A program made the position numbers and the translations under genes. A stretch of 64,000 nucleotides of DNA. Source: Bacillota bacterium (GTDB lineage: Bacteria > Bacillota_I > Bacilli_A > RF39 > UBA660). Where the stretch lies: contig SVAL01000006.1 of assembly GCA_015059405.1 (NCBI GenBank), positions 31,110 to 95,109 on the forward strand, in the 5' to 3' direction. This document shows positions 11,037-38,754 of this stretch, piece by piece (positions within the stretch are counted from its first letter, which is position 1; each line of letters starts with the position of its first letter). The notes under the pieces were generated by a model, which was not told the DNA's origin, ran no database searches, and was given only the letters and a program-made list of their open reading frames with translations.

Positions 11037-11125
11037 ATCCTCACCTACTATAAATAAGTATAACATATTTTTTTATCATTTACTACAATATTAGTTAGTA
11101 ATTTCTTTATTTTTTTGCAATAAAA

Positions 11126-11146
11126 AAAGCCTATATTAGGCTTAAT
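11126..11146 (-). terminator. Terminator downstream of the VirD4-like gene
   Basis: AAGCCTAATATAGGCTTTTTTTATT on the minus strand at the VirD4 stop codon. Confidence 0.65.
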
Positions 11147-13361: not shown

Positions 13362-13428
13362 ATGACGCCCTTCTTTCATTAACAAATTCAATATTATTAT
13401 AACAAATTTATTTTAAATTTCAATAAAA

Positions 13429-14446: not shown

Positions 14447-14457
14447 AAATTCCCTTT

Positions 14458-16659: not shown

Positions 16660-16698
16660 AGTTTCACCTCCACTACACATATACATAAATTATACCAT

Positions 16699-16733
16699 TA
16701 AAAAAGTGATTTTAAAATCATAAAATCACTTTT
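16699..16733 (-). terminator. Terminator between the VirB4-like and hydrolase genes
   Basis: AAAAGTGATTTTATGATTTTAAAATCACTTTTTT on the minus strand. Confidence 0.6.
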
Positions 16734-16743
16734 ATATATACTT

Positions 16744-18540: not shown

Positions 18541-19100
18541 AGTGCCACCACCGTTCCGAATTCTGTTGTACTTCCACCATTTAAGAAGTTATCAAGAATA
18601 ATTCTTAAGTCTTCATTACTAGTTTGACTTGCAGTTAAACCACAAGATGATAATGAGTTAATTAAGTTTCTAATTCTTTTTTGAATTCTATCTAAATCAT
18701 TATCTTTAAATAAAATATAGTATTCTGTATCAACTACATTATTATTCATAAAACTATTACCTTTTTGAATATCTTCAGTAATTAATTTTCTTACTGCAGT
18801 TGATTGTGTTTGGTTATACAAAAGTTGAAGTTGAGACATATAAACAGAAATATCTACAGGTCTATCTGCAACCACTAACCAAAATTCGAAATCTATTTGA
18901 TTGTAAAAATTCTTTAAGTTATTTATAATCCCCATTTGTGAATCAGCATCCAAAATGAAGATGTTTCTTGGAGTAATTTTAACTCCTGTTACTTTTTGAT
19001 TATTATTAAGGATAATCATACCATTATTGATTCCTTGTACTGGAACCCAATCTTCACAACTTTTATTACTGTTGTTTGTTGTTTTCTTCGACATATTCAT
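18537..19100 (-). CDS. VirB4 N-terminal-domain-like / TraC-like protein
   Basis: Resembles the N-terminal domain of Gram-positive VirB4-type proteins (VPVQGINNGMIILNNNQKVTGVKITPRNIFILDADSQMGIINNLKNFYNQIDFEFWLVV); 4-nt overlap with the ATPase gene. Confidence 0.55.
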   Translation of the reverse strand: MNMSKKTTNNSNKSCEDWVPVQGINNGMIILNNNQKVTGVKITPRNIFILDADSQMGIINNLKNFYNQIDFEFWLVVADRPVDISVYMSQLQLLYNQTQSTAVRKLITEDIQKGNSFMNNNVVDTEYYILFKDNDLDRIQKRIRNLINSLSSCGLTASQTSNEDLRIILDNFLNGGSTTEFGTVVAL

Positions 19101-19401
19101 TACACCAACCTTTCCATCTGAATGTCTTTTGATTTACAAAATAAAATCTATAACAATTTTGTAGGAATACTAACACATTATGATAATGCGGAACAGGGAT
19201 AACTAAGAATCCAGTAATTAAAACTGGTAACATAGTTAATACCGCAACTGCTATTTGTGTCATATATGATTGAAATATAAGCAATAATAATAATGTTGTT
19301 CCAGCACCTATTCCAAATAGCGCGAAATCAAAAGGCCTAAATAATCCCATAATTAATTTACCTTTATTGGCATTGGCAGGGATTAAATAATTATTTTCCA
19401 C
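19066..19401 (-). CDS. PrgI/VirB3-like T4SS protein
   Basis: ~110 aa, two TM helices, YLIPANANKGKLIMGLFRPFDFALFGIGAG...IPVPHYHNVLVFLQNCYRF; sits directly before the VirB4 genes. Confidence 0.65.
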   Translation of the reverse strand: MENNYLIPANANKGKLIMGLFRPFDFALFGIGAGTTLLLLLIFQSYMTQIAVAVLTMLPVLITGFLVIPVPHYHNVLVFLQNCYRFYFVNQKTFRWKGWCNEYVEENNKQQ

Positions 19402-19431
19402 TATATATCACCCTTTCTTTTTATTCTTTCA

Positions 19432-21198: not shown

Positions 21199-21235
21199 GA
21201 TTATTCACTTCCTTATTTTTTAAACCAATATTTTA

Positions 21236-21673
21236 TTAATTTCCTGGTGTTTCCCCCTCAGGGTTTTCTCCTGGATCTGGAGTTGGAGTCGAATTACCAG
21301 ATGCAATACCACAAGTTGGATCATCTACTAAATTTAAACTATCTTTCACTGGTTCTAATCCTAAAACAAATCTAACTAATAGTGGCACAAAGAAAAATGC
21401 TGCTGCCGCTATAAATCTCTTTACAATTCTTCCACCAGCTTTTTTAGATATGCTCTCATCTTGTGATGTTACTATTGACATTAAATCCCCTGAACATAAA
21501 ACAATTAATAGAATTGGAACTATTATTGTTACATATCCTAAAAATTCTCTAATCAAATCGTATGCTTCTGGTGTAAATATAGCATTACAATTCGCTGCAA
21601 ATACGATATTAACACTTAAAAACATACTAATTACTAAACTTAAAACTATCTTTTTTATACTATTTTTTACCAT
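21236..21673 (-). CDS. VirB2/TrbC-like T4SS pilin candidate 1
   Basis: Signal peptide (SLVISMFLSVNIVFAANC), two TM helices separated by a basic loop (SKKAGGRIVKRFIAAAAFFFVPLLVRFVLG). RBS GGAGG before ATG at 21673. Confidence 0.55.
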   Translation of the reverse strand: MVKNSIKKIVLSLVISMFLSVNIVFAANCNAIFTPEAYDLIREFLGYVTIIVPILLIVLCSGDLMSIVTSQDESISKKAGGRIVKRFIAAAAFFFVPLLVRFVLGLEPVKDSLNLVDDPTCGIASGNSTPTPDPGENPEGETPGN

Positions 21674-21763
21674 ATTTTCCTCCAAAAAGACAATATATCA
21701 CGATAATTATATCAAAAAAAAAATAATAGTAAAAGATATTTTACCATTATTTTTATTTTTTCT

Positions 21764-22885
21764 TTATTTTATGATATAAGGATCAGTAATTGTTCCGCTT
21801 CCTTTATCGTATTTTACTCTACTTGATAAGTAGAAAACATATTTATAAGTACCAGATCTATTAACATTTTCTGACATTAGAATTCCATTTGCGATATATG
21901 CAGTATATGTATTTTCAGTTGTTGGAGTCATTGTCCAAACAGATCCATCAACCATTAGATAGTTATAATTTCCACATGAACCATCAGTTGTTTTAATACA
22001 TTTATCTGATAAGCTTGCATTTAAAAAATCAAATACAGGAATTAAACTATAAATTTGTCCAGACATAACTTTACTACATTCAGCGCTACCATCTTTTGAT
22101 GTATCATCAGCACTTCTAGGTCCTATACAAACATCTTTCTTTACTACTTTTTGTTTAATGATACTATCAGCAGGTAATTGTTGATACAATAATTCAAGAT
22201 CATCTTTTGCTCTACTAAAACTATAGTCACTAATACCTACAGCAGTTTGTGTATCTTCATTATATCTATTGTCATAAATGCCTCTACTTCTTGTATTAGC
22301 AGTAACAATAGTTAAATCATTATTTCCATCGATTTTAACAATTCTATATAAATCATCACCTATTTTAACATAATTGTTTACTACTTCACCACGATAAATA
22401 TAACCTTCCATCAAATCATTTTCAATTTGTGAATCAGTTTCTGCCATCTTATATAATCCACTACCACTTGTTACTACATTTTCTAATAATTTATCAGCAA
22501 AGAATTGTGTTTTGTAGTTTTTTCCACAGTCTAGTGATGAAACATAATCATATCCAGTTGCAGTTTTACCAACTATAACTTTTCCACTACAAGTAACTCC
22601 TTCATCAGTGTATTCAGATAAATCTTTTATATAACCACCAGAAACTAATGCAGATGCTTCAATTTGAACTTCGTCACCAATGGCTTTAGGTAGTTTATCA
22701 CTATTATCATTACAATAACTTTCTGCAGCTTTAGCTAACTTATTTTCAATTTTTTCATAAGAAATACTTCCACCTGTAGTTAATGCAACTACTATTACAG
22801 CAATAATTATTATTAAGATTACACCTATTATTAGACCCATCATAGTAATTATTTTTTTATCTACTTTTTTTATACTTTCTAACAT
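21764..22885 (-). CDS. Membrane-anchored surface protein with pilin-head-like region
   Basis: N-terminal TM, then YEKIENKLAKAAESYCNDN...ALVSGGYIKDL...CSGKVIVGKTATGYDYVSSLDC, resembling the head region of the giant pilin. Confidence 0.5.
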   Translation of the reverse strand: MLESIKKVDKKIITMMGLIIGVILIIIIAVIVVALTTGGSISYEKIENKLAKAAESYCNDNSDKLPKAIGDEVQIEASALVSGGYIKDLSEYTDEGVTCSGKVIVGKTATGYDYVSSLDCGKNYKTQFFADKLLENVVTSGSGLYKMAETDSQIENDLMEGYIYRGEVVNNYVKIGDDLYRIVKIDGNNDLTIVTANTRSRGIYDNRYNEDTQTAVGISDYSFSRAKDDLELLYQQLPADSIIKQKVVKKDVCIGPRSADDTSKDGSAECSKVMSGQIYSLIPVFDFLNASLSDKCIKTTDGSCGNYNYLMVDGSVWTMTPTTENTYTAYIANGILMSENVNRSGTYKYVFYLSSRVKYDKGSGTITDPYIIK

Positions 22886-22934
22886 TTTAACACCTCATAA
22901 TAATTATAATATATGCAAATAAAAATAACAATAA

Positions 22935-22958
22935 AAAAAAGAATGTTTCCATTCTTTT
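22935..22958 (-). terminator. Terminator downstream of VirB2-like gene 2
   Basis: AAAAGAATGGAAACATTCTTTTTTTTATT on the minus strand. Confidence 0.65.
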
Positions 22959-23257
22959 TATGCTTGATCCCAACAAGCCATCCAACTTGCAGAATTTCCT
23001 TGTGCTCCAGAACTTGTAACTAAGTTCATAACTAATTTTACAAGTAGAACTATGAAGAAAATTGCAACTGCAGCAATAGCTCTTTTAATTAATTTACTAG
23101 TAGCTTGTTTGATTTCTTTATCATCACTTGATAATACAGCTTTCCCTAAGTCAACAGACCCCATAATAATTAATCCAATAGGTATTAAGAATTGAATTAT
23201 ATTGAAGATAGCTTTTACAAATCTAATTACTGGTAAAATTTCTGTCATTGTACACAT
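22958..23257 (-). CDS. VirB2/TrbC-like T4SS pilin candidate 2
   Basis: Two TM helices with basic loop (DLGKAVLSSDDKEIKQATSKLIKRAIAAVAIFFIVLLVKLVMNLV), paralogous in layout to 21236-21673. Confidence 0.55.
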   Translation of the reverse strand: MCTMTEILPVIRFVKAIFNIIQFLIPIGLIIMGSVDLGKAVLSSDDKEIKQATSKLIKRAIAAVAIFFIVLLVKLVMNLVTSSGAQGNSASWMACWDQA

Positions 23258-23334
23258 AATATAGTTTCCTCCTCACTTCTATATATCTAACTATACGACA
23301 TTACATTCTACTTTGTCAATATTTTTATGTAAAA

Positions 23335-24378
23335 TTAATGTCCAAACATACCACCAAATCCACCGCTTTTTCCACCATTCTGATTTGATTGAATAATGCC
23401 TAGTCTATTTAATAATCCAGTAAGAACCTGTGATCTACTACGATCATTAAATGGTCTAATAGCAGTAAATATTTTCAATCCTGTTTCACTAGCGAATTCA
23501 GTAATTTCATCATTAGATATCATACTTTTATTTATAATGATATTTTTTCCTTTTAATTTTTCAAAGATATTTCTATCTCTTTTTGCAATTTTATTAATTT
23601 TAATAATAGATGGTTCTATCAAATAATATATTTCATTACATACAGCTTCATCCATATCATTTAAATCTACTAATACTAAATCATAATTATAGGATTTAGA
23701 TAATTCAGATAAGAATTCTGCTTTATTGATAGATACTAATGATTTATCATTAAAATATACAAAATCTCTTTTTCCTACTTCGATTGCTTTTACACTTTTA
23801 CCGTGAAAATTTTCTAATTCTTTTTTCATAGTTACAACTAAAGTAGTTGCTCCTGCACTATCTGTACAGTTTTTAAATCCTATTACTCTTACTCTTTGAA
23901 TACTTTGAACTTGTTGTTGTTGTGGTTGTTGCTGTACATTATTACCACCAGCAGGTGCTTGTGGTATAGCTGGTACTGGGCCAACCGGCATAACAGGTTC
24001 TAATTGATGCATATGAGCTACATCTTTATAAGTATTAGGATTATTTATTAAGTATTCTACACCTTCTAAGTTGGTTGTAAAATTATAAAATCCCATTGAA
24101 ATTAATTTAGATAAATATGAATTGGTAGAAAAGTTTCCATCAGTTGGCAATAAAAGAATTATTTTTTCTACTGGTAATCCAATAGATAATTTTTGAATAT
24201 TAGCTATATTTTCATATTCCTTAATTGCTGTTAAATCTAGAATCATTCTACCAAAAAAGAAATTGGAAAAAGTTCCAATTATTTCTTCTGCTTCAAATTC
24301 TCCACGTAACGTTTTTATTATTTCAACACTTAAACCAGCTAGAAGAGTTTCTTGTTTATTTGTTATTAATACATTCAT
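23335..24378 (-). CDS. TadZ/CpaE-like protein with degenerate P-loop
   Basis: Receiver-like N-terminal region, PQ-rich linker, then MinD/CpaE-like domain (VRVIGFKNCTDSAGATTLVVTMKKELE...DLVLVDLNDMDEAVC). Confidence 0.55.
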   Translation of the reverse strand: MNVLITNKQETLLAGLSVEIIKTLRGEFEAEEIIGTFSNFFFGRMILDLTAIKEYENIANIQKLSIGLPVEKIILLLPTDGNFSTNSYLSKLISMGFYNFTTNLEGVEYLINNPNTYKDVAHMHQLEPVMPVGPVPAIPQAPAGGNNVQQQPQQQQVQSIQRVRVIGFKNCTDSAGATTLVVTMKKELENFHGKSVKAIEVGKRDFVYFNDKSLVSINKAEFLSELSKSYNYDLVLVDLNDMDEAVCNEIYYLIEPSIIKINKIAKRDRNIFEKLKGKNIIINKSMISNDEITEFASETGLKIFTAIRPFNDRSRSQVLTGLLNRLGIIQSNQNGGKSGGFGGMFGH

Positions 24379-24379
24379 A

Positions 24380-24814
24380 CTACCCTCCTACCGTTAATTC
24401 ATAAGAATTATCACTAAGGCCTTTACCATTTTCATAGCATTTTTTTATACCTTCAACATTATCAGAGACATTTCTTATGCCACTTGTTTCTCCGGCTACT
24501 GGTATTTGGATAGGATTTGATACTAACGGTAAATCAAAATTAATGTATAACATTAGTGAAAAATATTTTGTATCTTTTCCTTCTGTATAACAAGCATGAA
24601 TTTTTCCTGTATACCCTATTTCTGTTGCTTTTTCTCTTAAACTACGTACTCCTCCTTCTTTAAAACCTTCTTCTGCTTCGATATAGGTTATTAAAGTGTT
24701 TTTAGCACGGAATACACGACCATAGTTAATTACAACAGCCATGAAAAATATATATACAATTAGGAAAACCAATACTATTTGCATTAACATTGTTCCACCA
24801 ATCGCCTCACGCAT
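24380..24814 (-). CDS. TadE-like pseudopilin candidate
   Basis: N-terminal TM (MLMQIVLVFLIVYIFFMAVVINYGRVFRAKNTLITYIEAEEGF) and small soluble domain, located between TadZ-like and Flp-like genes. Confidence 0.5.
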   Translation of the reverse strand: MREAIGGTMLMQIVLVFLIVYIFFMAVVINYGRVFRAKNTLITYIEAEEGFKEGGVRSLREKATEIGYTGKIHACYTEGKDTKYFSLMLYINFDLPLVSNPIQIPVAGETSGIRNVSDNVEGIKKCYENGKGLSDNSYELTVGG

Positions 24815-24848: not shown

Positions 24849-25022
24849 CTAATTATTTAGTTTTCCATCTGCTGCATCTTGAGCAGTTTCATTTGTAGTT
24901 CCCCATGTATCTTGGATTGTTTCCATTATTTGTGGTACAAATAAAGTTACTACACCTAGGATTAAACCAATAGCAATAACTGTAATTAAAGTCATATTTA
25001 ATTCACCACTTGCTTCTTTCAT
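24849..25022 (-). CDS. Flp-type pilin candidate (57 aa), not in ORF track
   Basis: MKEASGELNMTLITVIAIGLILGVVTLFVPQIMETIQDTWGTTNETAQDAADGKLNN*, hydrophobic helix then polar tail; GGAGG RBS upstream; sits between TadE-like and TadC genes. Confidence 0.65.
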   Translation of the reverse strand: MKEASGELNMTLITVIAIGLILGVVTLFVPQIMETIQDTWGTTNETAQDAADGKLNN

Positions 25023-25095: not shown

Positions 25096-25875
25096 TTACC
25101 CCATCATTAACAACATTGCAAATACTAGGATAATCATTGTTCCTCCACCAGTAACTACTAACATTATCATAGTTTTCTTTTCCATTACTGATAGTCTTTG
25201 TTTATATTTATCTTCACGTGCTTTATTTTGTAATGAAGATACTGACTTAGAAAACATTGTCAATTGTTGATATTTATTTTCTTGTGCTCCAAGTCCTAAA
25301 CGATATAATAAACGCATCATTCTCATTGAATCTCTTACAGGATATTGATTAGCAAAATCCATATAAGGTTGAATTGATGAGTCTCCATTATTTATTTTTT
25401 CAACCATTACTCTTAATCCTGGTTTAAATATTTCAGGAGCATCTTCTATTGATCTTGCTAGTGCTACTGGAACTGTATAGTTTTGACATAATATTTCTAA
25501 TCCTTTTAAGTAGTATGGTAACATTTGGTCTATTTTAGACATATATCTTTTATAATAAGATCTCAAATTTGTATAATATGATTTATATATTACGTATATT
25601 AGTACCATAAAGAATACTAAATTTATAAAAGAAAATTTTGTAACTAATAGTAATAAAATAATCATTGCAAAGATAAAAGTCTCTTTGATTCTTTTTCTAA
25701 ATAGTTCATCTGGATCTTTTTTATCTCCATATCTTGCTGATACATAAAAGTCCCAGTCTTTTTCTTTTAACATCTTTATATAAATATCATTTTCTTCTAA
25801 GAATTGATTTGTATCTACTGTTTTAGTATAGATAAGAGCAAATGCTACTAAACAGGCCATTATTAGTATTTCCAT
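25096..25875 (-). CDS. TadC-like type II secretion F-domain protein
   Basis: Multi-TM; position after TadB; MLPYYLKGLEILCQNYTVPVALARSIEDAPEIFKPGL. Confidence 0.65.
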   Translation of the reverse strand: MEILIMACLVAFALIYTKTVDTNQFLEENDIYIKMLKEKDWDFYVSARYGDKKDPDELFRKRIKETFIFAMIILLLLVTKFSFINLVFFMVLIYVIYKSYYTNLRSYYKRYMSKIDQMLPYYLKGLEILCQNYTVPVALARSIEDAPEIFKPGLRVMVEKINNGDSSIQPYMDFANQYPVRDSMRMMRLLYRLGLGAQENKYQQLTMFSKSVSSLQNKAREDKYKQRLSVMEKKTMIMLVVTGGGTMIILVFAMLLMMG

Positions 25876-26768
25876 TATTCAGCACCTACATTCTCGTTAT
25901 AATATTTTTCTCCAGATATAAGAAAATAACTATTTAAAATTACTATAGCGTGTAATGCAACTAGTACAATTGGATTTTTTAATAATTCTCTATATGTTTC
26001 TACCTGTAACATATATTGAATTAACATTACTAGTAAATAAAGCATTAAACCATAAGATATAAATTGTCTATGGAAATTAGAACGGTCCATTCTATCACGA
26101 TATACACCTTCTACTAAAGTATCGATATCTTGTAACATGTTTTCAAGGACATCTCCTGAGTCTCTTGAACCTTCTTTAGTAATTTGTAAGAATAATTGGT
26201 GCATATTTCTTGTCATATAGAAATCATATCTTTCATTCATATATTCAATAGATTCATCAACAACACCATTTTGATATGCCATATCAATCATTATTTTAAC
26301 ATCTGATAAAACAGGATCTTGTAAAACTCCTGATGAATATACACCTTCTAGAGCTTTAACAAAACTTTGTGTTGTTTGGAATTCCATAATTGTATTTGTA
26401 GTATAAACTTGTACTTGTTCAAAGATAAATTCACTATATATACGTTTACATCTTAAATAATGTAAATATGGAACCATACTAATTGCTGCTACTACATATA
26501 TTATTGATACTAAAAAGTTATAGAAATATAGGTAAGATATTATGAATGCGCCTCCACCAAATAAAGCAAGTTGAATTGCATGATCTTTTGGTGTGTAGTC
26601 TTGTCCTAAATCTTTTACTTTTTCTTTAATAGTTTTAAATGAGTAAGGAGCCCATCTATCATATACAACATTAGCACCATCTATAACGAATTTATATAAA
26701 GAGTCACCTTTTTTAATATAATATAAAGTCGCAAATAGAACTAGGAACAATATAATGACTAATTCCAT
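25875..26768 (-). CDS. TadB-like type II secretion F-domain protein
   Basis: Multi-TM; TNTIMEFQTTQSFVKALEGVYSSGVLQDPVLSDVKIMIDMAYQNGVVDESIEYM...EGSRDSGDVLENMLQDID. Confidence 0.68.
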   Translation of the reverse strand: MELVIILFLVLFATLYYIKKGDSLYKFVIDGANVVYDRWAPYSFKTIKEKVKDLGQDYTPKDHAIQLALFGGGAFIISYLYFYNFLVSIIYVVAAISMVPYLHYLRCKRIYSEFIFEQVQVYTTNTIMEFQTTQSFVKALEGVYSSGVLQDPVLSDVKIMIDMAYQNGVVDESIEYMNERYDFYMTRNMHQLFLQITKEGSRDSGDVLENMLQDIDTLVEGVYRDRMDRSNFHRQFISYGLMLYLLVMLIQYMLQVETYRELLKNPIVLVALHAIVILNSYFLISGEKYYNENVGAE

Positions 26769-26788: not shown

Positions 26789-28645
26789 TTATTGAATATT
26801 TGTAATATTAATTGGAGTAAATTCAGTAGGTACTCCACTACCTTCAGTTGTATCAGTAGTTGTTTGAGGAGCAACAGGAGGTGCAATAAAACTACTTGTA
26901 TCAATAACTGGTTCGTTATTAATTGGTTGTTCTAAACTTACACTAGGTAGTCCTTCTACTACTGGAGCAGTTACAGTCGGAGGTGTAATTACTTGTGGTT
27001 CAATTACTGGAGTTACAGTAACTGGCGCTTGTACAGCAGGCTGTTCTACTGTTAATTGTTCAACAGGTTTAACTTCTTCTGTTACAGTAGGTTGTACTAC
27101 TACTTGTTGAGTTTCTACTGGAGTAGGTGCAACTGGAGCTTCTACTACTTTTACTGTTTCAACAACTGGTTGCACTTCAACTGGTGCAACATTTTCTACT
27201 GGTTTTATTTCTTCTACTGTAGTAGTTACAACTGGTGTTTCAACTACTGGAGTAGCTTCTTCTTTTACTTCTGTTTTTTCTTCAATGTTTGTATTTTCTA
27301 CATGTTCATCGCTATAACTTTGAGCTTTTTCTAAATCACCATTAGCTTCTCTTATATTAGTCATATCTATTCCTTGACCTTCTAAGTAATTTAATAAGTG
27401 TTCACTAATTGGTTTATATGTTACATCTCCTTTAATTGTTTTTTGATAAATAGTATTTGAAATACATTCATTATTATCATTAACATAGAATTCTGTAACT
27501 TCCCCTATTTCACGTACAAATCTTCCTTGTTTAGGATCGAAACGTCCACGTAAATATACCCCTAATTGTACATAACGATATATTGTATTTAAGAATTGTT
27601 CTACATCAATATTTGATTCTAATAAACTGTATAAACGATATGGAATATTAGCTGCTTTATCAGCATGGATTGTTGATAAGATAAAGTGCCCAGAAGATAT
27701 AGAGTTACGAACAGCAGTTACTGCTTCAGCACTACGTACTTCTGATAATAATATCCATATTGGGTTTTGTCTCATACATGTAACTAACACATCAGAATAA
27801 GATGCAATGTTATTAGTCTTCATCGCAACAATATCACGATGTGGATAAATTCTATCCAAGTGAAGTTCTAATGTATCTTCAACTGTTACAATCTTTTCAT
27901 TTTCAAAAGTGTGACTAGCTAAGTATTTTAAGAATTCTGTTTTACCTGAACCAGTTTCCCCACACATAATGATATTACAATGTCCTTGTACAGCTTTTAT
28001 TAGGAAATCATGTATACTTAAAGATACATAATTTTCTTTCATTAATTTATCTTTTTCTAGACGAATTTTTGCAGGTGTTTTACGAAAAACTACTGCAATA
28101 CCATTTCTAGCAATTGAATCATGAATAAAGTTCATACGAAGTTCAGCTGATTCTGAGTCTAGGAATGGATGAGCCATATTAAAGGTTTTACCCATTACGT
28201 TAGAACATTGGAAAGCAATCTTTTCAATTAATGCATCATTAATATCATCTGAATCAACTCTATAGACACCTTTACTTAAAGTCTTTAACCAAAGTTGGCC
28301 ACCATTACTATAAGATATATCAGTTACATCATCATCTTCTAAATATTTTTTTAATGGACCAAAATCCATACTTGAAAAAATACTATCATTTTTACGACGA
28401 TTTGCTTCTTCATCAGCTCGTAGTTCTTTAATCATATCTAAATCTTCAAAATTCATTTCATTATTGGCATTTAAAGATTTATTTTCTTCTACAGAAACAT
28501 TTGAACTTTCAGGAACACTAGTAGTATTATCCTGAAGTTCAATATTATTTTTTTCAACAGGAACAGAAGCGGCAACAACATTATTTGTTGCTACTTCTGC
28601 ATTTCCTCCTATTCCCATTCCATTTAAATTCATTGTTTCATTCAT
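26789..28645 (-). CDS. CpaF/TadA secretion ATPase with ~180-aa Pro/Val/Thr/Glu-rich tail
   Basis: Walker A IIMCGETGSGKTEFLKYLA, Walker B/His region WILLSEVRSAEAVTAVRNSISSGHFILSTIHADKAANIPYRL. Confidence 0.88.
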   Translation of the reverse strand: MNETMNLNGMGIGGNAEVATNNVVAASVPVEKNNIELQDNTTSVPESSNVSVEENKSLNANNEMNFEDLDMIKELRADEEANRRKNDSIFSSMDFGPLKKYLEDDDVTDISYSNGGQLWLKTLSKGVYRVDSDDINDALIEKIAFQCSNVMGKTFNMAHPFLDSESAELRMNFIHDSIARNGIAVVFRKTPAKIRLEKDKLMKENYVSLSIHDFLIKAVQGHCNIIMCGETGSGKTEFLKYLASHTFENEKIVTVEDTLELHLDRIYPHRDIVAMKTNNIASYSDVLVTCMRQNPIWILLSEVRSAEAVTAVRNSISSGHFILSTIHADKAANIPYRLYSLLESNIDVEQFLNTIYRYVQLGVYLRGRFDPKQGRFVREIGEVTEFYVNDNNECISNTIYQKTIKGDVTYKPISEHLLNYLEGQGIDMTNIREANGDLEKAQSYSDEHVENTNIEEKTEVKEEATPVVETPVVTTTVEEIKPVENVAPVEVQPVVETVKVVEAPVAPTPVETQQVVVQPTVTEEVKPVEQLTVEQPAVQAPVTVTPVIEPQVITPPTVTAPVVEGLPSVSLEQPINNEPVIDTSSFIAPPVAPQTTTDTTEGSGVPTEFTPINITNIQ

Positions 28646-28647: not shown

Positions 28648-29523
28648 TTATCCACCATTTGTTCCATTATTTGGATCTTCATTTGTATTATTATTTTCTT
28701 CGTCACTTTCATTATTATTGTTTCCGTTACTTTCTAAAATTTGTTCAAAACGGATACTTTCACTATCTATATAGTCTGTAATTTCAGCACTTGTAATTAC
28801 TTTTTCAGCACCTTCTTCGATAGTTTTTTCACTTACTGATGTTGGTACTGGGAATACATTAATTCCTAGTTGTGCTGCAGATACTAAGTAACTATGTTGT
28901 TCTTCTGTTACTGCAAACATTACATAAGCAGGAACTCTCATTTCATCACTATTTTCAAATACATTTAATCCATCTGATGTTTTAACAGCTAATACTTTGA
29001 TATTTTTAATAAATTTACCAACTCTAGCTTTACCATATTGGTCTGTATCTTTTACATATAAATCAATATATCCACCAGGTACAATAGCATTTACATAACT
29101 TGTTGACATATTAACAGTTAAGTAATGTAATACTTCACCATCTTTTACATCATATACAGCTGAATCTGGTAAATCTGATTTTTTTACTACTGCTTTTTTA
29201 TAGAATAAACTTCCTTCTGGGATCATAGTATTAATATTTGTATAATAATCAATTAAATCTGATTTTTTTGTAATTATGTTATCTCCCATTTCTTCTAATG
29301 CTGCTGTTGCAACATTCATATATCCAATCATTTCTTCTGTAATTTTCATACGTGGTTGAATTGTAACCTTAGCATATGGAATTGATACAGGTTCTACTGC
29401 TGATTGAATTCTCATTGTGTAACCTACATATAAAACAATTATACCGATAATTGCACATATAATAGTTACTGTGTTTCTGTTACTTAAAAACTTTTTTACT
29501 TTTATTGAAGTACTATTCATCAA
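28648..29523 (-). CDS. CpaB/RcpC-like SAF-domain pilus assembly protein
   Basis: TM, then IPYAKVTIQPRMKITEEMIGYMNV...IPEGSLFYKKAVVKKSDL...YLTVNMSTSYVNAIVPGGYIDLYV. Confidence 0.72.
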   Translation of the reverse strand: MMNSTSIKVKKFLSNRNTVTIICAIIGIIVLYVGYTMRIQSAVEPVSIPYAKVTIQPRMKITEEMIGYMNVATAALEEMGDNIITKKSDLIDYYTNINTMIPEGSLFYKKAVVKKSDLPDSAVYDVKDGEVLHYLTVNMSTSYVNAIVPGGYIDLYVKDTDQYGKARVGKFIKNIKVLAVKTSDGLNVFENSDEMRVPAYVMFAVTEEQHSYLVSAAQLGINVFPVPTSVSEKTIEEGAEKVITSAEITDYIDSESIRFEQILESNGNNNNESDEENNNTNEDPNNGTNGG

Positions 29524-29536: not shown

Positions 29537-30040
29537 TTAATCTTCACTTTCTAAAATTGCATTTAATACGTTAACAACATCTGCTGTTTCTGTTTCATAA
29601 TCAAATGTTTTTTCTTTTTTTCCTAATAATTTGGCAAACCAACTTAAACTTTCATTTGTACTTATAGTTACTGTTACTTTAGGAGGACATTCATCAATAT
29701 CATTAAAAGATATTTTATATGTTTTATTACGATCTGCATTTTCAGCAAAATGTCTAATAAAGCTTTCAACAAATCTTTCTTTAACGATTCTTATTACTTC
29801 TGTTTGTCCTTCAATACAATGCATTGATTCTGGATCTGTATCTGGTGTTACGCCATCATATCCAATACCTAAACGATATGCAGTAACATCAACAGAATCA
29901 GTTAATGCTGACTTTGTAACTTCTTTTAACAAATAATAATCTTGTTCATTATTTAAGGTAATGTTACCAAATAAATTAATTAGTAATAGGCCCAATATTC
30001 CTAAAAACAGGAATAAATATCCCCACACTGCTGTTTTCAT
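29537..30040 (-). CDS. Single-TM pseudopilin-like protein, copy B
   Basis: Paralogue of the 34358-34861 product (YLFLFLGILGLLLINLFGNITLNNEQDYYLLKEVTKSALTDSVD; DPESMHC; RIVKERFVE; DIDECPPKVTVTI). Confidence 0.6.
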   Translation of the reverse strand: MKTAVWGYLFLFLGILGLLLINLFGNITLNNEQDYYLLKEVTKSALTDSVDVTAYRLGIGYDGVTPDTDPESMHCIEGQTEVIRIVKERFVESFIRHFAENADRNKTYKISFNDIDECPPKVTVTISTNESLSWFAKLLGKKEKTFDYETETADVVNVLNAILESED

Positions 30041-30043
30041 ATT

Positions 30044-33031
30044 TTAACCTCCTGTTTTAGATCCTTCGATATAGGTGAAATAAGTTGAAAATCCTCCTTC
30101 TTCTATATCGTCTACATGGATAAATTTACTTTTATATTTTCCTGTATCTTTTTTACTTGCTCTTATAAAATCTCCATAAGCATCATTACCTTCTGAAATA
30201 TACTTTTTAGTATGTTTCTTAATAGCATTAATTCTTTTTGAATCTAATACTATTTCATATTCTGGTCCGCTACTATTAGTCGATGGAGTATTATCTTCTG
30301 TATCATTAGTGATATATTCTTCATACCCTATCCAGTTATAATGAGCTTCTCTATCAGGAAAAGGATTATTTAGTGATATCGTCCTATAATAATATTTTAA
30401 ACCATTACTTCCGCAACTGCAATCATTAATACAGTTTCCTATCGTTTTATATCCATCTACTTGATAGTTTACTTTACAGTATTGTCTGATTGCTTTTATA
30501 TCAGAACATGTATATAAACTTTTACAAGTATTTTTACCAGGTGGATTTGTACAATCTGTATAACAGTCATTATAACTTGAATAACCTTTTCTATCTTTTT
30601 GCCAGTTATTTTCACAATAATTTTTAATTTTACTATATTCTGTTGGTTTATATAGATCTGTACATGTTTTATTTTCATCTGTTGGGAAATTAATTACACA
30701 ATAGTTTTTATTATTTCCTACTTTAACCATTCCCCAAATTGTTATTTTTGTATTATTACTAATAGTTTTTGCATTCATATACATCCATTTATTACTTGTT
30801 GAATCTTTTATATAATACTCTGCATTTGGATTATTAATTGGTTTTAATTTAATAGTTTTTGTATTATTAGAATTTTCTATTACTTCAAAATTACAAGCAT
30901 TTGGAGTAATTGTTACTTCCTTTTTACAATAAGCATAGTTTGTACCATCAGTAACAGTACCATATATAATTTGATCATCATTATATCTTATAGTATTTCT
31001 ATAAATAGTTTTTGTTTGAAGATTATTAAAAACATCGCCTTTTTCTTTAATAGTATCTCCTAAGTTATAAGTGATCTTTTTACTTTTATCACCATTTACT
31101 GCGTATAAAGTGAAAACTATATCTTCATTATTTATTAATATATTACCAGTTTGACCACTTTTAGTTTCTACAGTTATATAACATGATAATTTATTATCCG
31201 CTACTTTATAATTACATTTATTAGTTGTATCCATACCAGCTATACTATGAGTCACTTTAGTTTCAGTAGCATTAGTAGTACTATCAGCATAGATACCAGT
31301 AAAGTATTTGTTATATGGTCCTAAGCCATTTTCACATGTTGAACCTTCTTTTACTGATACATTGTCTTTAGCTGAGATACAAACTCCAGGTAAATTATAT
31401 AAAGTACCATTACTAGAGTCAGTAATATAAGTTTTAACACTTAGTGTTTTAGCAATATTTTTATGGAAAGATGTTACATTTTTATTAGTATAAATTGATG
31501 TTACATCATCACTACCACGATAATATTCATTTTCTTTTTTTAATGTTTTAGTAGTAGTAGAACTATCTCCATTGGTTTTTTCATTTATTTTTATAGAGAT
31601 ATTAGCATTTGAAGATTTATAAACATAACTACTTAGACTTAATCTATTAAAATTATTTATTGCTTCTATATAATTATTTCTTTCAGCATTTGTATAACTT
31701 GCTGCATAATTATATTTCCAACTTTCTGTATCAAAAGTAATTGTACAAGTTTTATTTCCATATAACTTTACTTGATATTCAAAACCAGTACCTGGCATTA
31801 TAGTTGTTGGTAAAGTTGTTGGATAAATAGTTGTTGAGGATGTTGTACACTCTACTTTATATGAGAAATTCTCACTATTTATTATTTGACAAGATTCTTT
31901 ACTAGATGTTGTTTTTGATGAACATGTTGTATCGTTTCCATTAACGCTATTAGTATTACCACAACTTAATTTATTGTAAGTATAACCACAAGTATTAGTA
32001 ATACAATTAGCTTTACCATTGCTATCTTTAATATTAGATAGACTTGAACAATAATTTTCTGCACATTTTAATAAAGCATCACCTTTTAAATTATTACATA
32101 CACCTTTACAACCAATGTTTCCATTTTGTCCTATCCAGAAAACCATTACTCCATATGGATAGTTAGATACTTTATAAGCATTATCTTTTTTTAATTGATC
32201 TTTATGACTTAGGATGCTAGATGTTGTTTTTACAATAGATGTATTACTTTCTTGTGCTAAGAAATTATAGTAATCATATCTTCCATCTTTAGCTCCTGGA
32301 TATTTTTTTGATGAATTAGTTTGATTATACATACCATTATATAAATATCCTAGGAATGTTACTCTTCCTTGTGATTCCCATAAATTCCAATCATAATCTC
32401 CTGTATATACATCTATATCTTTTAAAATGGTCATATATTCATAACCAGTTGCATATGTATAAAACTGACCAACTCTACTATGAAAAAATGCAGTTGGTTC
32501 GGCAACGATATAGTATTGTGATAATTCCGCTTGAGTTACATTTATACCAAACATCTTTTTTATACCATTTATAGTTGATGTTGCGTTATCTCCATAATAT
32601 TTTAAGATTTCGTTAGCAAAAGTAGAACTCCATGTAGTATCTTCATCTATTGTTGATAAACCATAATTATTAATATCAACTGCGCCAACTTTATAATATC
32701 CAAAATCCATTGTTTGATTTAATTTTGTATAATTATATCTTCCATATTTATTTTTTGTTGTATTTACTTTACTAGGATATGCACTCGGTTGATTAACTAA
32801 ATCAATAGATTTTTTAAATACTAGATTTTTTCCATCATATTTATATAGACTTAATCTTACCCCAAGTCCATTACTTGCATAAGTCCATGAACACTCATCA
32901 CATCCACTTGCTGGTGGTGTTGGTGCACCTCCTGGAGTTACTTCTACTTTTGCATTTACTACTTTAGTTTGAATAATAAAAAGCATCAGTATCAAGATTA
33001 AACATATTATATTTTTATTTTTTCTCTTCAT
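30044..33031 (-). CDS. Cys-rich secreted protein, copy B
   Basis: Signal peptide; CDECSWTYASNGLGVRLSLYKYDGKN...; C-terminal YYYRTISLNNPFPDREAHYNWIGYEEYIT; parallels the 1041-aa protein. Confidence 0.65.
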   Translation of the reverse strand: MKRKNKNIICLILILMLFIIQTKVVNAKVEVTPGGAPTPPASGCDECSWTYASNGLGVRLSLYKYDGKNLVFKKSIDLVNQPSAYPSKVNTTKNKYGRYNYTKLNQTMDFGYYKVGAVDINNYGLSTIDEDTTWSSTFANEILKYYGDNATSTINGIKKMFGINVTQAELSQYYIVAEPTAFFHSRVGQFYTYATGYEYMTILKDIDVYTGDYDWNLWESQGRVTFLGYLYNGMYNQTNSSKKYPGAKDGRYDYYNFLAQESNTSIVKTTSSILSHKDQLKKDNAYKVSNYPYGVMVFWIGQNGNIGCKGVCNNLKGDALLKCAENYCSSLSNIKDSNGKANCITNTCGYTYNKLSCGNTNSVNGNDTTCSSKTTSSKESCQIINSENFSYKVECTTSSTTIYPTTLPTTIMPGTGFEYQVKLYGNKTCTITFDTESWKYNYAASYTNAERNNYIEAINNFNRLSLSSYVYKSSNANISIKINEKTNGDSSTTTKTLKKENEYYRGSDDVTSIYTNKNVTSFHKNIAKTLSVKTYITDSSNGTLYNLPGVCISAKDNVSVKEGSTCENGLGPYNKYFTGIYADSTTNATETKVTHSIAGMDTTNKCNYKVADNKLSCYITVETKSGQTGNILINNEDIVFTLYAVNGDKSKKITYNLGDTIKEKGDVFNNLQTKTIYRNTIRYNDDQIIYGTVTDGTNYAYCKKEVTITPNACNFEVIENSNNTKTIKLKPINNPNAEYYIKDSTSNKWMYMNAKTISNNTKITIWGMVKVGNNKNYCVINFPTDENKTCTDLYKPTEYSKIKNYCENNWQKDRKGYSSYNDCYTDCTNPPGKNTCKSLYTCSDIKAIRQYCKVNYQVDGYKTIGNCINDCSCGSNGLKYYYRTISLNNPFPDREAHYNWIGYEEYITNDTEDNTPSTNSSGPEYEIVLDSKRINAIKKHTKKYISEGNDAYGDFIRASKKDTGKYKSKFIHVDDIEEGGFSTYFTYIEGSKTGG

Positions 33032-33040
33032 ACTTTTCCC

Positions 33041-33751
33041 TCATTTTCTTTTTTTAGGTATATTTAGTTTTACTCTTTTCTTAGAATTTATATAACTTCT
33101 ACTTAATAGATAAACCATTATTAAAATAATTATTACGATTACAAATTGTACTATTTTATTAGTAAAGAATTCATAGAAAAAATTCTTTTCTTCTACTTTT
33201 TTTTCTGGATCAATATTTTTTATTTCACCTTTTTTATATTTATCTATTTGTTCAAGGAACCATTCTTTACTTTCAATTTTTCCAGAATAATTTCTTTTAC
33301 ATAAATAGAATTCTTCTATTCCTTCACATTCTTCAAATGTAGAATAATCATTGTAATAATCAAAATCAACTTTAAGTGTAACTAGTAATTGATCAGAACA
33401 ATCTCCATCATAAGCACCATATATTTTAAATGTAATTCTATCTCCAGGTTTATACACACCAAAAACAGAATCATTATTATATGATCCTTCATATTCAAAA
33501 CGATTATTATTTGAATCAACTATATATACATTTTTAGAAAAATTAGTAATATTAACGTTATAAAAATATTCATGCATTGGATTATAATCATCATCGAAAT
33601 ATGGAATTATTTCAATATTCTTAGCTTCTTTTACTAATTTATTTTTTTGTGTATTAGTACATGTTGATGCTTCTACTTTTATAGTTGATAAAAAGATAAT
33701 AATTAATGTAAAAATTATTATTTTATATTTTTTTAATACACTAGTTTTCAT
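33041..33751 (-). CDS. Secreted, C-terminally TM-anchored protein, copy B
   Basis: Signal peptide, domain with CEGIEEFYLCKRNYSGKIESKEWFLEQIDKYKKG, C-terminal TM plus basic tail. GAGGG RBS before ATG 33751. Confidence 0.65.
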   Translation of the reverse strand: MKTSVLKKYKIIIFTLIIIFLSTIKVEASTCTNTQKNKLVKEAKNIEIIPYFDDDYNPMHEYFYNVNITNFSKNVYIVDSNNNRFEYEGSYNNDSVFGVYKPGDRITFKIYGAYDGDCSDQLLVTLKVDFDYYNDYSTFEECEGIEEFYLCKRNYSGKIESKEWFLEQIDKYKKGEIKNIDPEKKVEEKNFFYEFFTNKIVQFVIVIIILIMVYLLSRSYINSKKRVKLNIPKKRK

Positions 33752-33863
33752 AGTACAACACCCTCTATTATATACTACTAGTAGTATACAATAATTATGG
33801 TCAAAAAACAATCTTTTATTGTTTTATTTTTTGATTTATGCTAATATACTTTTGAGGTGTATT

Positions 33864-34313
33864 ATGAAGAAGACAATTAAATTTTTAAGTCTTTTTCTTG
33901 TATTAGTTTGTTTAGTTGTAGGATGTGGAAAAGACGAAAAGAAACCAGAAGAAGAAACAAAAGATACTTCTTACTTAACAGAAATTACATTTAGTGAACT
34001 AAAAACAAAGCTTGATAATAAAGAAGATATCATTTTAGAAATAGTTCAAACTGGATGTTCTAACTGTACAGTATTTTCTCCTAGATTTGAATCTGTACTT
34101 AATGAATATAAGATTCAAGCTTATAGTTTAAATATTTCTTATTTAGATGAAGAAGGAGATAAGTGGTTAAATTTATATGGAGTAGATGGTACTCCTACTG
34201 TTATTTTCTTTGAAAAAGGTGAAGAAACTAGTACATTAAAAAGAATAGTTGGTAGTCAAACTAGAGAAAAAATTGTTTCTAAGTTAACTGCTAATGGTTA
34301 TATTGAAAAATAA
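33864..34313 (+). CDS. Thioredoxin-like lipoprotein, opposite orientation within the locus
   Basis: Lipobox LVCLVVGC; QTGCSNCTVFSPRFESVLNEYK...YGVDGTPTVIFFEKGEE (CxxC motif and cis-Pro). Start moved to 33864 (GAGG RBS). Confidence 0.78.
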   Translation: MKKTIKFLSLFLVLVCLVVGCGKDEKKPEEETKDTSYLTEITFSELKTKLDNKEDIILEIVQTGCSNCTVFSPRFESVLNEYKIQAYSLNISYLDEEGDKWLNLYGVDGTPTVIFFEKGEETSTLKRIVGSQTREKIVSKLTANGYIEK

Positions 34314-34324
34314 TATATAAAATA

Positions 34325-34356
34325 AAAAGAATATTCATTTTAGAATATTCTTTTTT
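34325..34356. terminator. Bidirectional terminator between convergent genes
   Basis: AAAAAGAATATTC-ATTTTA-GAATATTCTTTTTT. Confidence 0.7.
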
Positions 34357-34357
34357 A

Positions 34358-34861
34358 TTATTCAAACGGATCTTCTGATTCAAGAATACCACTTATAACA
34401 TTAGTTATATCAACATCATGTGCTTGTTGCTTTTTATCAGAACCAAGTAATCTTTCAATTGAACTATAACTACGTTTAGATATAACAGTTACTGTTACTT
34501 TTGGTGGGCATTCATCAATATCATTAAAGATAATTTCATAATCACTACTTATATTAACACTTTGAGCAAATTTTAATAAAAATAATTCAACGAATCTTTC
34601 TTTAATAATTCTAATTGTTCCTGGAACACCAGAAGTACAATGCATAGATTCTGGATCAGTTAATTGAGTAATACCATCATAACCTACTCCATATTCATAT
34701 GCATATTCATCTACAGCATCTAACATTGCAGATTTTGTTACTTCTTTTAATGAATAATAGTTTTGTTCATCATTAATTGTAATTTCTCCAAACATATTAA
34801 CAAGGAATAAACCAAATAATCCTAATACTAGAAATAAATATCCCCAAATTGATGAATTCAT
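34358..34861 (-). CDS. Single-TM pseudopilin-like protein, copy A
   Basis: Paralogue of 29537-30040; ATGA overlap with the 1041-aa gene supports start at 34861. Confidence 0.6.
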   Translation of the reverse strand: MNSSIWGYLFLVLGLFGLFLVNMFGEITINDEQNYYSLKEVTKSAMLDAVDEYAYEYGVGYDGITQLTDPESMHCTSGVPGTIRIIKERFVELFLLKFAQSVNISSDYEIIFNDIDECPPKVTVTVISKRSYSSIERLLGSDKKQQAHDVDITNVISGILESEDPFE

Positions 34862-37800
34862 CGAGTATAGCACCCACTTCCTACGATTTTATCGTCTTTA
34901 TTAGTTTTTACATTAGATGTTGCAATTATTCCCAATTCATCTTTAAAATAATCATGAATTATATAACTACAATAAACATCTGCTTTAGCATTTCCTACTC
35001 TATTTTTAGTAGCATCTTCATAAGTATTTTTAGCATTTTTAGATTCTTTATAATCTGTATATGTTAAATTTAAATCTTTATTTTTTTTGATTTCTTTAAT
35101 ATCTTCTGATGTTAAGACAAAACGATATTCATATTCACTACTACGACCATCAGTACTATCATAATATTTTTTAGTTGCATCACTACTTTCAGTAATATGC
35201 TCTACTTTACTAAACCAGTTAGCACCAGGCGCTCTTCCTTCAACATTATCACCATCTGGGAATGGTCTATTTAAATTGATAGTACGATAAACGTAATCTC
35301 TTCCGTTTCTTTCATCATCAGAACAACTTCCATTTTCACAACGACAAGTTTTCTTACAAATTAAATACTCATCTTTAGTAATGTAATTGTTTTTATATTT
35401 TTCTTCACATTCATCCATACAACAATTATATATACATCCTACTGCACCATTACAACTTGTACGACAACATCCATATGTACAAGTTAATCTTTTTTCTCCT
35501 GTTGCATAGTTTTTATTACAGTCATCTAAACAACTTCCTTCATTACATGAATTAGTTGTTTTACTAAAATCTTCACAACCATCACATTCTTGTGGACAAT
35601 ATTTCATACGACATACAACATTATTTCCACAATATGAATCACAACTACAATAGTTTTTAAAACATGTTTGATACTCAGTTTGTGTCATTTGTGAACCTGG
35701 TTTATTATATTCTTCAATACAATTCTTACTACATAGAGTTGATGATTTAAACTCATATCCACACTTTAATTCAAATGAGAATTGTCCACATGATCCCATA
35801 CCACTTACAACTATATTAAGATTATTATGTTCGGTTACTGAATTATACGTATCTAAACTTACATTTTTATTTAAAGGATCAAATACCCATGTGTGTTTAA
35901 TTTCTAAAGGTGAATTTAAAATTTCATTGCACACTTTAATGTTGTTTCTACACACAACACTATCCCCTAATTTGTTAACTCCTGTATAACTAGATGGTAA
36001 TGAATAATATACTTTTTCTGTATATGTAGATTTACCTGTTGATAAATTAACAATTGCAGTAGCGGGATTACCATTATTATCTAAACAAGATACATTTTTT
36101 GTAAAATAATTTATAGTATATCCTTTTTTAGCTTCTAATTCACAATATTTTTCTTGGTATGAAGAATTATTCGCAATACAATATACTGGTTCTAAAGTAA
36201 CTGTTTCTGTTTTTGATGTAGTTCCTTGTTGATTACTATATTGTACTTTTACAGTATTTGTTAGTGCATCATTAGTTGGTTGATCTTTATCTTTTACATC
36301 TTTTAGTTTTTGTTCAGCAGCTGGTTTAATTCCTTCTAATTCTTTAATAACTTTTTCTAAAGTTGCTTTACCTTCAGTTGCTATTTTTAGACTCTCTTTA
36401 TATTTTTCTATTTCAGCTTTTGCCTTCGATTTATTATAATCTGTACTCCATGTTTCTTCTGTTGTTTTATAATAAATTTGACAAACCTTTTTATACTCCA
36501 TTGTATATCCCAAATATAAATTTGAAGTTTGAGCTGGTGTTACATAAACATTAGCTCTTGATGGTAAATTACTAAATGTAACTTTTTCATCACATTCAAT
36601 TTTATAATAAGATAAAATAACTGATTTAGATAAATTTCTTACATTAACTTTACCAGTTGTTTTGTTAACTGATACAACTTGGCTTTCTAATGTATAATTT
36701 TTATTATCAACATCATCATAACAAATTTTACTAGTTAAATCTTTTTTAGTAGTATTACTTCCATTTGCAGCACAATAATTTCCAGTTGATTTAATATCAC
36801 TAGTTTTTAATGTAGAGTTATAACATACATTTAACACTTCACGATCACATCCAGGAGAATCATAAACTGTATCTTTACAAGTTAATATACATTCTTCAAC
36901 ATGTTCTGCTGGATAGATTGATGTACAAAAGTTTTGAGCACATTGATCTAATGCATCATCTCCAGCATCAGCACAATATGTTGCACAAGTTCTTGGATTC
37001 TCTTCTGGTGGTAAAACATCTCCTAACCATAGTACAGTTATACCATATGAATAGTCATCAACATCATAGTTACTAGTTATATTACTTCTATCTACTGCAC
37101 CGTCTGAAGACTTAATAAGTGCATTTTTATTTGCATAATGATTAACAAAATTGTTAGGATCATAACTGCCTATTTCATTAAATATTTTAAATTCGTTTGT
37201 CTTTACAAACATGGCATTATATATTTGACCAGTTACCATTCCACCTAATGATCCCCAGAATGTTAAAACACCCTTAGCAATCTCATCTTCAGAAAGGCCT
37301 GCTGCAGTTAATTCACTAACACTATATGTATAATAACTATCATTTAACTTATCGCGTCTACTTAAATATTCATATCCTGTTGCATAAAATTTAATATCTC
37401 TTTTTCTATTACGCGCAATTAAAGTTGGTTCTACAACAAGATAATAATTAGAATACTCTGCTAAGTTCATCTTGTGACCAAACATTGCTTCAATATTAGT
37501 TTGAATTGTTGCTTTATCATTACCTAAATATGTAGATAATCTATTAATAAATGTTGGCCCCCATGGTGTTGAATCATCTAATTCATAAGTCTTCCCACCA
37601 TTATATGGTGCTATTGACTTAAGTGTTATTTTTTCAGCACTACTTTTAAAACTTACATTACTGGATGAGCCATATTCTAATCTACTTTTTCTTGCTGTTG
37701 TTGTTACAACCCAACTAGTGTAATCAGATGCTCTATTTATAAGATCTAATGATCCATAATATGTTTTTGTTCCATTTTTATATTTGTATAAACTTATTCT

Positions 37801-37983
37801 TACACCTGAATCTTCATCCCCATTATATACCCATGAACAACGAGGACACGAATTACCAGTACTAGGTGGTTTATAACCACCAGTAGAACTATTGAATGCC
37901 GCATTTGCTACTCCTGGTAAAAGTAGGATACACATGCAAATAAATACTATTATTTTATTTTTTAAATTCTTCATATATCTCAT
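34858..37983 (-). CDS. Cys-rich secreted protein, copy A
   Basis: Signal peptide; CPRCSWVYNGDEDSGVRISLYKYKNGTK; dense Cys cluster (CSKNCIEEYNKPGSQ...CSCDSYCGNNVVCRMKYCPQECDGC...CRTSCNGAVGCIYNCCMDECEEKY). Confidence 0.68.
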   Translation of the reverse strand: MRYMKNLKNKIIVFICMCILLLPGVANAAFNSSTGGYKPPSTGNSCPRCSWVYNGDEDSGVRISLYKYKNGTKTYYGSLDLINRASDYTSWVVTTTARKSRLEYGSSSNVSFKSSAEKITLKSIAPYNGGKTYELDDSTPWGPTFINRLSTYLGNDKATIQTNIEAMFGHKMNLAEYSNYYLVVEPTLIARNRKRDIKFYATGYEYLSRRDKLNDSYYTYSVSELTAAGLSEDEIAKGVLTFWGSLGGMVTGQIYNAMFVKTNEFKIFNEIGSYDPNNFVNHYANKNALIKSSDGAVDRSNITSNYDVDDYSYGITVLWLGDVLPPEENPRTCATYCADAGDDALDQCAQNFCTSIYPAEHVEECILTCKDTVYDSPGCDREVLNVCYNSTLKTSDIKSTGNYCAANGSNTTKKDLTSKICYDDVDNKNYTLESQVVSVNKTTGKVNVRNLSKSVILSYYKIECDEKVTFSNLPSRANVYVTPAQTSNLYLGYTMEYKKVCQIYYKTTEETWSTDYNKSKAKAEIEKYKESLKIATEGKATLEKVIKELEGIKPAAEQKLKDVKDKDQPTNDALTNTVKVQYSNQQGTTSKTETVTLEPVYCIANNSSYQEKYCELEAKKGYTINYFTKNVSCLDNNGNPATAIVNLSTGKSTYTEKVYYSLPSSYTGVNKLGDSVVCRNNIKVCNEILNSPLEIKHTWVFDPLNKNVSLDTYNSVTEHNNLNIVVSGMGSCGQFSFELKCGYEFKSSTLCSKNCIEEYNKPGSQMTQTEYQTCFKNYCSCDSYCGNNVVCRMKYCPQECDGCEDFSKTTNSCNEGSCLDDCNKNYATGEKRLTCTYGCCRTSCNGAVGCIYNCCMDECEEKYKNNYITKDEYLICKKTCRCENGSCSDDERNGRDYVYRTINLNRPFPDGDNVEGRAPGANWFSKVEHITESSDATKKYYDSTDGRSSEYEYRFVLTSEDIKEIKKNKDLNLTYTDYKESKNAKNTYEDATKNRVGNAKADVYCSYIIHDYFKDELGIIATSNVKTNKDDKIVGSGCYTR

Positions 37984-37986
37984 CCT

Positions 37987-38682
37987 TTACTTCAAATCCA
38001 AATTTACTTTAATTTTATTTTTGTTTGTTTTTATACTTCTAATTACAATTACAATGATTAATAGAATTACTACAATGGCAATTACAATAATATATGGATT
38101 TTCTGATAAATATTTTGTAATTTCATCAATTATGTTTGTTTCTTTTTCTGGTTCTTCTTGTTTTTCTAAACTTGCTTTATATTTTTTTATTTGTTCTTCA
38201 AACCAAGCTTCAGATTCTATTTTTCCTGAATATGTTCTTTGGCATAAAGCATACTCTTCTATTCCTTCACATAATGGTGATAGATAATAATCATTGTAAT
38301 GTGGAAAAGTTACACGAATAGTAGCCATTAATGTATAAGCACAAGTTTGTTTATAAGCACCATATACCTTAAAAGTAATTACACTACCAGGAGCATAATT
38401 TCCATATTTTTTTTCTGATGTATGACCCGGTGTCATTTGATATATAGTACCTTTAGAATCTTCTATATAAAACTTATTACTCCAGTTATTAAAACTAATA
38501 GTGTAATAGTGCTCATGGATTGGACTTTCTTCACTATCTAGATTAGCAATTATTTCAATTGCTTGAGCTTCTTGTTTTAATGCCTTTTTCTCTTCTGTAG
38601 TACAACTTGCTGCTTCTACTTCTATCTTAAAAAAAGATATTACTAAAATTAATATAATTATTAAAAGATTTTTCTTTTTCAT
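37987..38682 (-). CDS. Secreted, C-terminally TM-anchored protein, copy A
   Basis: Signal peptide, CEGIEEYALCQRTYSGKIESEAWFEEQIKKYKAS, C-terminal TM; AGGAG RBS before ATG 38682. Confidence 0.65.
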   Translation of the reverse strand: MKKKNLLIIILILVISFFKIEVEAASCTTEEKKALKQEAQAIEIIANLDSEESPIHEHYYTISFNNWSNKFYIEDSKGTIYQMTPGHTSEKKYGNYAPGSVITFKVYGAYKQTCAYTLMATIRVTFPHYNDYYLSPLCEGIEEYALCQRTYSGKIESEAWFEEQIKKYKASLEKQEEPEKETNIIDEITKYLSENPYIIVIAIVVILLIIVIVIRSIKTNKNKIKVNLDLK

Positions 38683-38754
38683 AAGCTTCTCTCCTATTCT
38701 TATTACTAATATAATTATAATTTTTTTAGTAAGTATTTTCAAGAAAAAAGAGTA

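Follow-up and report, generated by a model that had tools for sequence, protein, structure and literature searches.

The window, i.e., the whole stretch of 64,000 nucleotides that was analyzed, contains two diverged copies of a three-gene module, A-B-C, next to an operon for a Tad-like machine with T4SS-like genes, and sequence comparisons and trees indicate that module 1 is a recombinant of two lineages. The chances that A-B-C is an exchangeable surface cassette of this chromosomal machine, most likely a tip/adhesin complex, are in our judgment about even. The features are listed in Table 1.

Table 1. Genes and predicted transcription signals of the two modules and of the machine operon in the window.
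Feature	Coordinates	Strand	Properties
Putative sigma-A-like promoter of module 1	38714-38742	-	TTGAAA-17-TATAAT, 11/12; precedes A1
A1	37987-38682	-	signal peptide, Ig-like beta-sandwich ectodomain, C-terminal TM segment, short basic tail; type-2 lineage
B1	34858-37983	-	exported, 1041 aa, 50 Cys; residues 1 to ~404 type 2, ~416-1041 type 1
C1	34358-34861	-	DUF5411 (PF17424), E 1.3e-34; N-terminal TM segment; type 1
Predicted bidirectional hairpin terminator	34324-34355	.	perfect 13-bp stem, T tracts on both strands; between C1 and the convergent thioredoxin-fold gene
Thioredoxin-fold lipoprotein gene	33864-34313	+	between the modules; PF00085 E 3e-9; CSNC active site; lipobox
A2	33041-33751	-	A paralogue, module 2
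B2	30044-33031	-	exported, 995 aa, 31 Cys; type 2
C2	29537-30040	-	DUF5411, E 7.7e-37; type 2
RcpC/CpaB-like	28648-29523	-	PF16976 30.2 bits, cut-off 28.8
CpaF/TadA ATPase	26789-28645	-	T2SSE E 2.6e-26
Two membrane proteins, TadB/TadC position	25875-26768, 25096-25875	-	assigned from position and size
Flp-like 57-aa protein	24849-25022	-	Flp1_like E 0.01, below cut-off
TadE-like protein	24380-24814	-	TadE E 0.12, below cut-off
CpaE-position protein, two T4SS_pilin-like, VirB6/TrbL_4, PrgI/TcpE-like, VirB4 (two ORFs), M23 peptidase, VirD4 (CD1115 family)	11142-24378	-	

The earlier note had described two modules of secreted proteins with the same gene order, and all six ORFs were indeed open at the coordinates that it gave. 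The signatures that it cited were also found, namely C(E)GIEE..LC.R.YSGKIES, CSW.Y..GVR.SLYKY, YRTI.LN.PFPD, DPESMHC and DIDECPPKVTVT. BLASTP revealed 46% identity between A1 and A2 over 162 aa of the ectodomain (E 6e-52), and 56% between C1 and C2 across the full 167 aa (E 1e-57). The paralogy of B1 and B2 held for the N-terminal 341 aa (32%, E 5e-36) and for a C-terminal block with YRTI.LN.PFPD (E 7e-10), but not for the middle (~400-770), which showed no detectable likeness because B1 is a mosaic. The similarity was thus not confined to signal peptides and TM segments, as the exported parts were alike too. On the DNA level it was clear for C alone (70% over 300 bp, spacing 4821 bp), and, therefore, the duplication is old. 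The genes are spaced as in an operon, with A-B gaps of 3 and 9 bp, 3 bp between B2 and C2, and a 4 bp overlap of C1 and B1. No further copies of C or B were found in the window's own genome assembly, which is 79% complete. The thioredoxin-fold lipoprotein gene on the + strand between the modules had gone unmentioned in the earlier note.

Both C proteins scored far above the PF17424 gathering cut-off of 30 bits (C1 119.5, C2 126.7). A and B matched no known family; RIFIN and other weak Pfam matches for A were below the cut-offs and were disregarded. The AlphaFold model of an A2 homologue (pLDDT 82) has a beta-sandwich ectodomain, for which the structure search gave no significant match and none better than E 0.04. 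For B the pLDDT was 45, so that no confident model of the fold was available, and no adhesin family was matched. The C-terminal domain of B is present in 61 B proteins and the window-type N-terminus only in 7, with weak alignments of B across genera. A motif that recalls thioester adhesins, YC[ILVMF][DS]P, lies close to the N-terminus in many B proteins of other genera (loci L045-L058; residues ~60-95, 336 in L046). A thioester domain was considered for B and rejected, because neither B nor its relatives had a Pfam or PDB match and the motif is absent from the window's B. Signal peptides, lipobox and TM segments were assigned by inspection of the sequence and of the structure model rather than by a predictor program. 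A membrane protein downstream of VirD4 (10536-11066) matched the thioredoxin profile, without a CxxC motif.

A leader of the type M-K/R-E/D-A/S/T was found in 19 of 53 C proteins versus 2 of 343 other proteins, a comparison with related rows and, thus, an overstated P value. In these 19 proteins it resembles the leaders of the Flp-like and TadE-like proteins of the same operon, which have MKEA.G / MREA.GG in common. The C leaders of the window itself, MKTAVWG and MNSSIWG, are without the E. A kinship of C with TadE was not supported, as a profile comparison of C with the TadE-like protein showed no similarity. In three relatives C is fused to an M15 D-Ala-D-Ala peptidase with SH3 or fn3 (L051:4149-5879, L054:4246-5949, L065:6829-8448). 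Because of the pilin-like leader and the peptidase C-terminus of some relatives, C is expected to lie at the wall and to face outward.

The mosaic structure of module 1 is an addition to the earlier note. B1 matched the type-2 B of L033, a locus of the same genus, at residues 4-403 (30%, E 1e-36) plus a short C-terminal piece, and the type-1 B of L033 only at 416-1038 (32%, E 8e-78). In the trees, A1 (99/98) and the B1 N-terminus (100/100) fell into the type-2 clade, and the B1 body (100/100) and C1 (100/99) into the type-1 clade. By these comparisons module 1 is a recombinant, with A1 and about 400 N-terminal residues of B1 from type 2 and the rest of B1 and C1 from type 1. The second B of L040 has an N-terminus that groups with L033 type 1 and a body that groups with its own paralogue (both 100/100), which by the same kind of evidence is a second, independent swap of the B N-terminus. 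The simplest reading of these sequences is that the N-terminal half of B is the exchangeable part. A specific co-evolution of A with the B N-terminus was also considered, but the partial correlation of 0.33 (P 0.0008) dropped to 0.10 without module 1 of the window, and A followed the B body equally well, so that this idea was abandoned.

In the genus of the window, C was present in 8 of 9 genomes: two tandem copies in the genomes of the window and of L033, two separate copies in one genome, and a single copy in five. Several members have only the type-1 module at the operon. Outside the genus, L034-L036 have only the type-2 module, adjoining CpaB (L036 is cut off upstream). In L037, degraded remnants of B2 (35 aa at 54%, E 8e-9) and C2 (pieces at E 9e-7) lie between the thioredoxin-fold gene and CpaB. 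From these remnants and the distribution of the modules it follows that the two-module state existed earlier and that module 2 decayed at least in L037.

The probable separate transcription of module 1 likewise goes beyond the earlier note. A hairpin with another stem sequence is found at the place of the predicted terminator also in L033, L037-L039, L041 and L042. Promoter-like elements similar to that of A1 precede A in L033 and L037, and TTGTTT-17-TATACT was read by eye before A2 in the window, L033 and L034. The number of promoter matches was not above chance, with 73 found versus about 90 expected in shuffles of this AT-rich DNA, and the argument is therefore based on position and on recurrence in relatives. 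With a promoter and a terminator of its own, module 1 is probably its own transcript, and module 2 probably heads the machine operon. A palindrome, TATACTACTAGTAGTATA, at about 33770-33795 overlaps the putative -10 region of A2, and related palindromic stretches occur in L034 and L035. Repeats that could drive phase variation were sought between the modules; none of those found was inverted, and the tandem ones were all short.

Several gene names of the machine are assigned from sub-threshold scores and position, and the proteins at the TadB/TadC positions had no T2SSF match in Pfam. Above the cut-offs were the T4SS parts VirB4 (AAA_10, P-loop_TraG), VirB6 (TrbL_4) and VirD4 (NF045973). The ORFs at 13429-14446, in which VirB8 was sought, had no match, and the scanned ORFs of the window included no recognisable relaxase. 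The locus showed no gene for a prepilin peptidase, and the genome has one A24 peptidase, at another site. At the far end of the locus, a protein of 2321 aa (2389-9354) begins with a prepilin-type sequence (N_methyl) and contains many repeats that look Ig-like, as well as Flg_new (Listeria-Bacteroides) repeats. In the literature searched, no description was found of Tad-type genes together with T4SS-like genes (VirB6, VirB4, VirD4, M23 peptidase) in one operon. A VirB4 homologue was present in 124 of 146 genomes of the family, mostly with 65-92% identity, and in many genomes the VirB4-C distance was typically 9-15 kb where both were on one contig. This spread, identity and distance suggest vertical inheritance of a chromosomal locus and speak against a mobile element. 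G010, considered as a genome with A-B-C but no machine, was set aside, since the stretch downstream consists of N.

A search of 395 genomes of the class gave DUF5411 above the cut-off in 47, every one a member of the window's own family. Of the 146 genomes of this family, 120 had C and 98 had A. A and C co-occurred: 93 of the 98 A-positive genomes were also C-positive (Fisher P 4e-8), an exception being G492, which was C-negative among the matches listed. Of 50 loci, C lies directly before RcpC/CpaB in 45 and follows B in 47, and the three genes A-B-C adjoin one another in 38, some of the missing cases being contig ends. The A and B ORFs overlap in 34 of 46 cases, and the B-C gap is below 30 bp in 48 of 50. 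The functional unit postulated in the earlier note is thus well supported by synteny, coupled ORFs and the co-occurrence of A and C, but it is not an absolute three-gene unit, as in other genomes A-B pairs have multiplied without C (L039, L042, L053) and A alone is duplicated (L059, L062). A survey for one versus two modules revealed one cassette, and mostly one C, in most family genomes, and extra A-B pairs or whole cassettes in several. The recurrent expansions were A-B-A-B-C, B-A-B-A-B-C, A-A-B-A-A-B-C and two whole A-B-C cassettes; in L043 the second cassette is at a remote site. The lineage of L060 and L073 has no recognised A and, in its place, a sortase and an Ig-like surface protein, i.e., a sortase-domain gene directly upstream of B (L060:8882-9658, L073:9449-10261) that follows a Bact_surface_Ig-like gene. 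Between the window and L033, identity was 82-86% for CpaF, TadB and TadC, 80% for C2, 59% for B2, 57% for A2, and about 30-32% for A1 and B1. The machine genes are thus conserved, C less so, and A and B least, and the exported proteins are among the fastest-diverging parts of the locus.

This divergence pattern, the counts of the B domains, the swaps and the sortase/Ig-like neighbors are the reasons why B is regarded as a candidate contact protein with a conserved docking end. It would be exported via Sec and displayed on the surface, with a variable, swappable N-terminal half, and its C-terminal ~120 residues would be conserved for docking. A would be its Ig-like, membrane-anchored partner, and C, which is bitopic and in many relatives starts with a pilin-like leader, might join B to the pilus or base and to the cell wall. 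The thioredoxin-like lipoprotein could form the many disulfides of B. The two diverged, separately transcribed modules might confer two alternative specificities on one machine, and the data suggest exchangeable adhesive ends.

Tip/adhesin cassettes are favored because of the contact-protein pattern of B, the C leader and the precedent of the Kil pilus. The earlier note had proposed alternative pilus subunits or tips. Tips are plausible, given the Tad-like operon, the pilin-like C leaders in many relatives and the published precedent, but by sequence A and B are not pilin subunits, as their N-termini are of the Sec type and not of the prepilin type. These Sec signals also count against tips, as do the missing E in the window's C leaders, the lack of a confident fold and an adhesin family for B and of a significant structure match for A, the dissimilar profiles of C and TadE, and the location of the prepilin peptidase outside the locus. 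A wider scheme is speculative and, as a whole, rather unlikely: in gut Bacilli, a vertically inherited hybrid of a Tad pilus motor with channel parts (VirB4/VirB6/VirD4) would bear exchangeable tips of three proteins each, and recombination would shuffle the B heads, so that a single cell could change its binding partner.

The main rival, somewhat less probable still, is a protein secretion system with B as secreted substrate and A and C as substrate-specific membrane partners, the two modules serving two substrates. The VirB4, VirD4, VirB6 and M23 genes of the operon agree with it, as does the secretion-related role given to a CpaF-PilC-DUF5411 operon by Miller et al. 2022 (PMC9523054), but the Sec signal peptide of B is an ordinary one, and its C-terminus is a conserved domain, not a recognisable effector domain. 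The fusion of C to a peptidase fits a basal role at the wall as well as a tip role, and together with the M23 peptidase in the operon it speaks for A-B-C as a basal or cell-wall part that lets a pilus or channel cross the peptidoglycan, with copies for different growth conditions. For structural base parts, neither the much faster evolution of A and B relative to the machine nor the swapping of the B N-terminus would be expected, and we regard this as improbable. Least probable is that a segmental duplication of the ordinary kind left one of the two modules redundant and heading for loss. Such a loss is seen in L037, and most family genomes have one C, but in the window and in L033 both modules are intact despite their deep divergence, a separate promoter and terminator have been retained, and several lineages show recurrent expansion.

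Should the tip idea prove wrong, the locus would still be a candidate for contact with the host or with neighbors, because it is present in most family genomes and its exported proteins diverge so fast. If the tip idea is true, a role would be found for DUF5411 and two unnamed protein families, and Tad-type and T4SS-type genes would be linked in one inherited operon.

Among known systems, the conjugation adhesins of Gram-positive bacteria, PrgB and TIE-pLS20 (PMC8092201), resemble the locus in that a secreted adhesin is encoded beside T4SS-like genes and in the thioester-like motif of some B relatives. The rejected thioester domain, the motif's absence from the window's B and the lack of a recognisable relaxase in the ORFs that were scanned set them apart. 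A secretion operon with CpaF, PilC/GspF-like, DUF5411 and an internalin-like protein has already been predicted by Miller et al. 2022 for the Clostridia genera Roseburia, Ruminococcus and Eubacterium (PMC9523054). The window has all of these parts except a detectable PilC domain, plus the Flg_new repeats in the 2321-aa protein, which may be the internalin-like protein. The accessible text of that paper makes no mention of A, B, a duplication of the module, mosaicism or a VirB4/VirD4 part, and the host here is a Bacilli family. The closest precedent for the tip reading is the Kil (Tad) pilus of Myxococcus xanthus, with four paralogous KilLMN three-gene tip clusters on one machine (PMC12075869). 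There, KilL, KilM and KilN all have pilin folds with alpha1N helices, the host is diderm and tip function is backed by genetics, whereas here only C is pilin-like, and that in relatives, A and B have Sec-type signal peptides, T4SS-like genes lie in the same operon of a Bacilli lineage, and tip function is what we infer. Common to both is one Tad machine with several paralogous three-gene clusters, and the Kil products are likewise diverged, surface-exposed and equipped with additional domains (PMC12075869). If the tip reading is correct, Tad-like tip exchange, so far shown in Myxococcus, would extend to monoderm bacteria of the gut, in a family that is widespread and uncultured.
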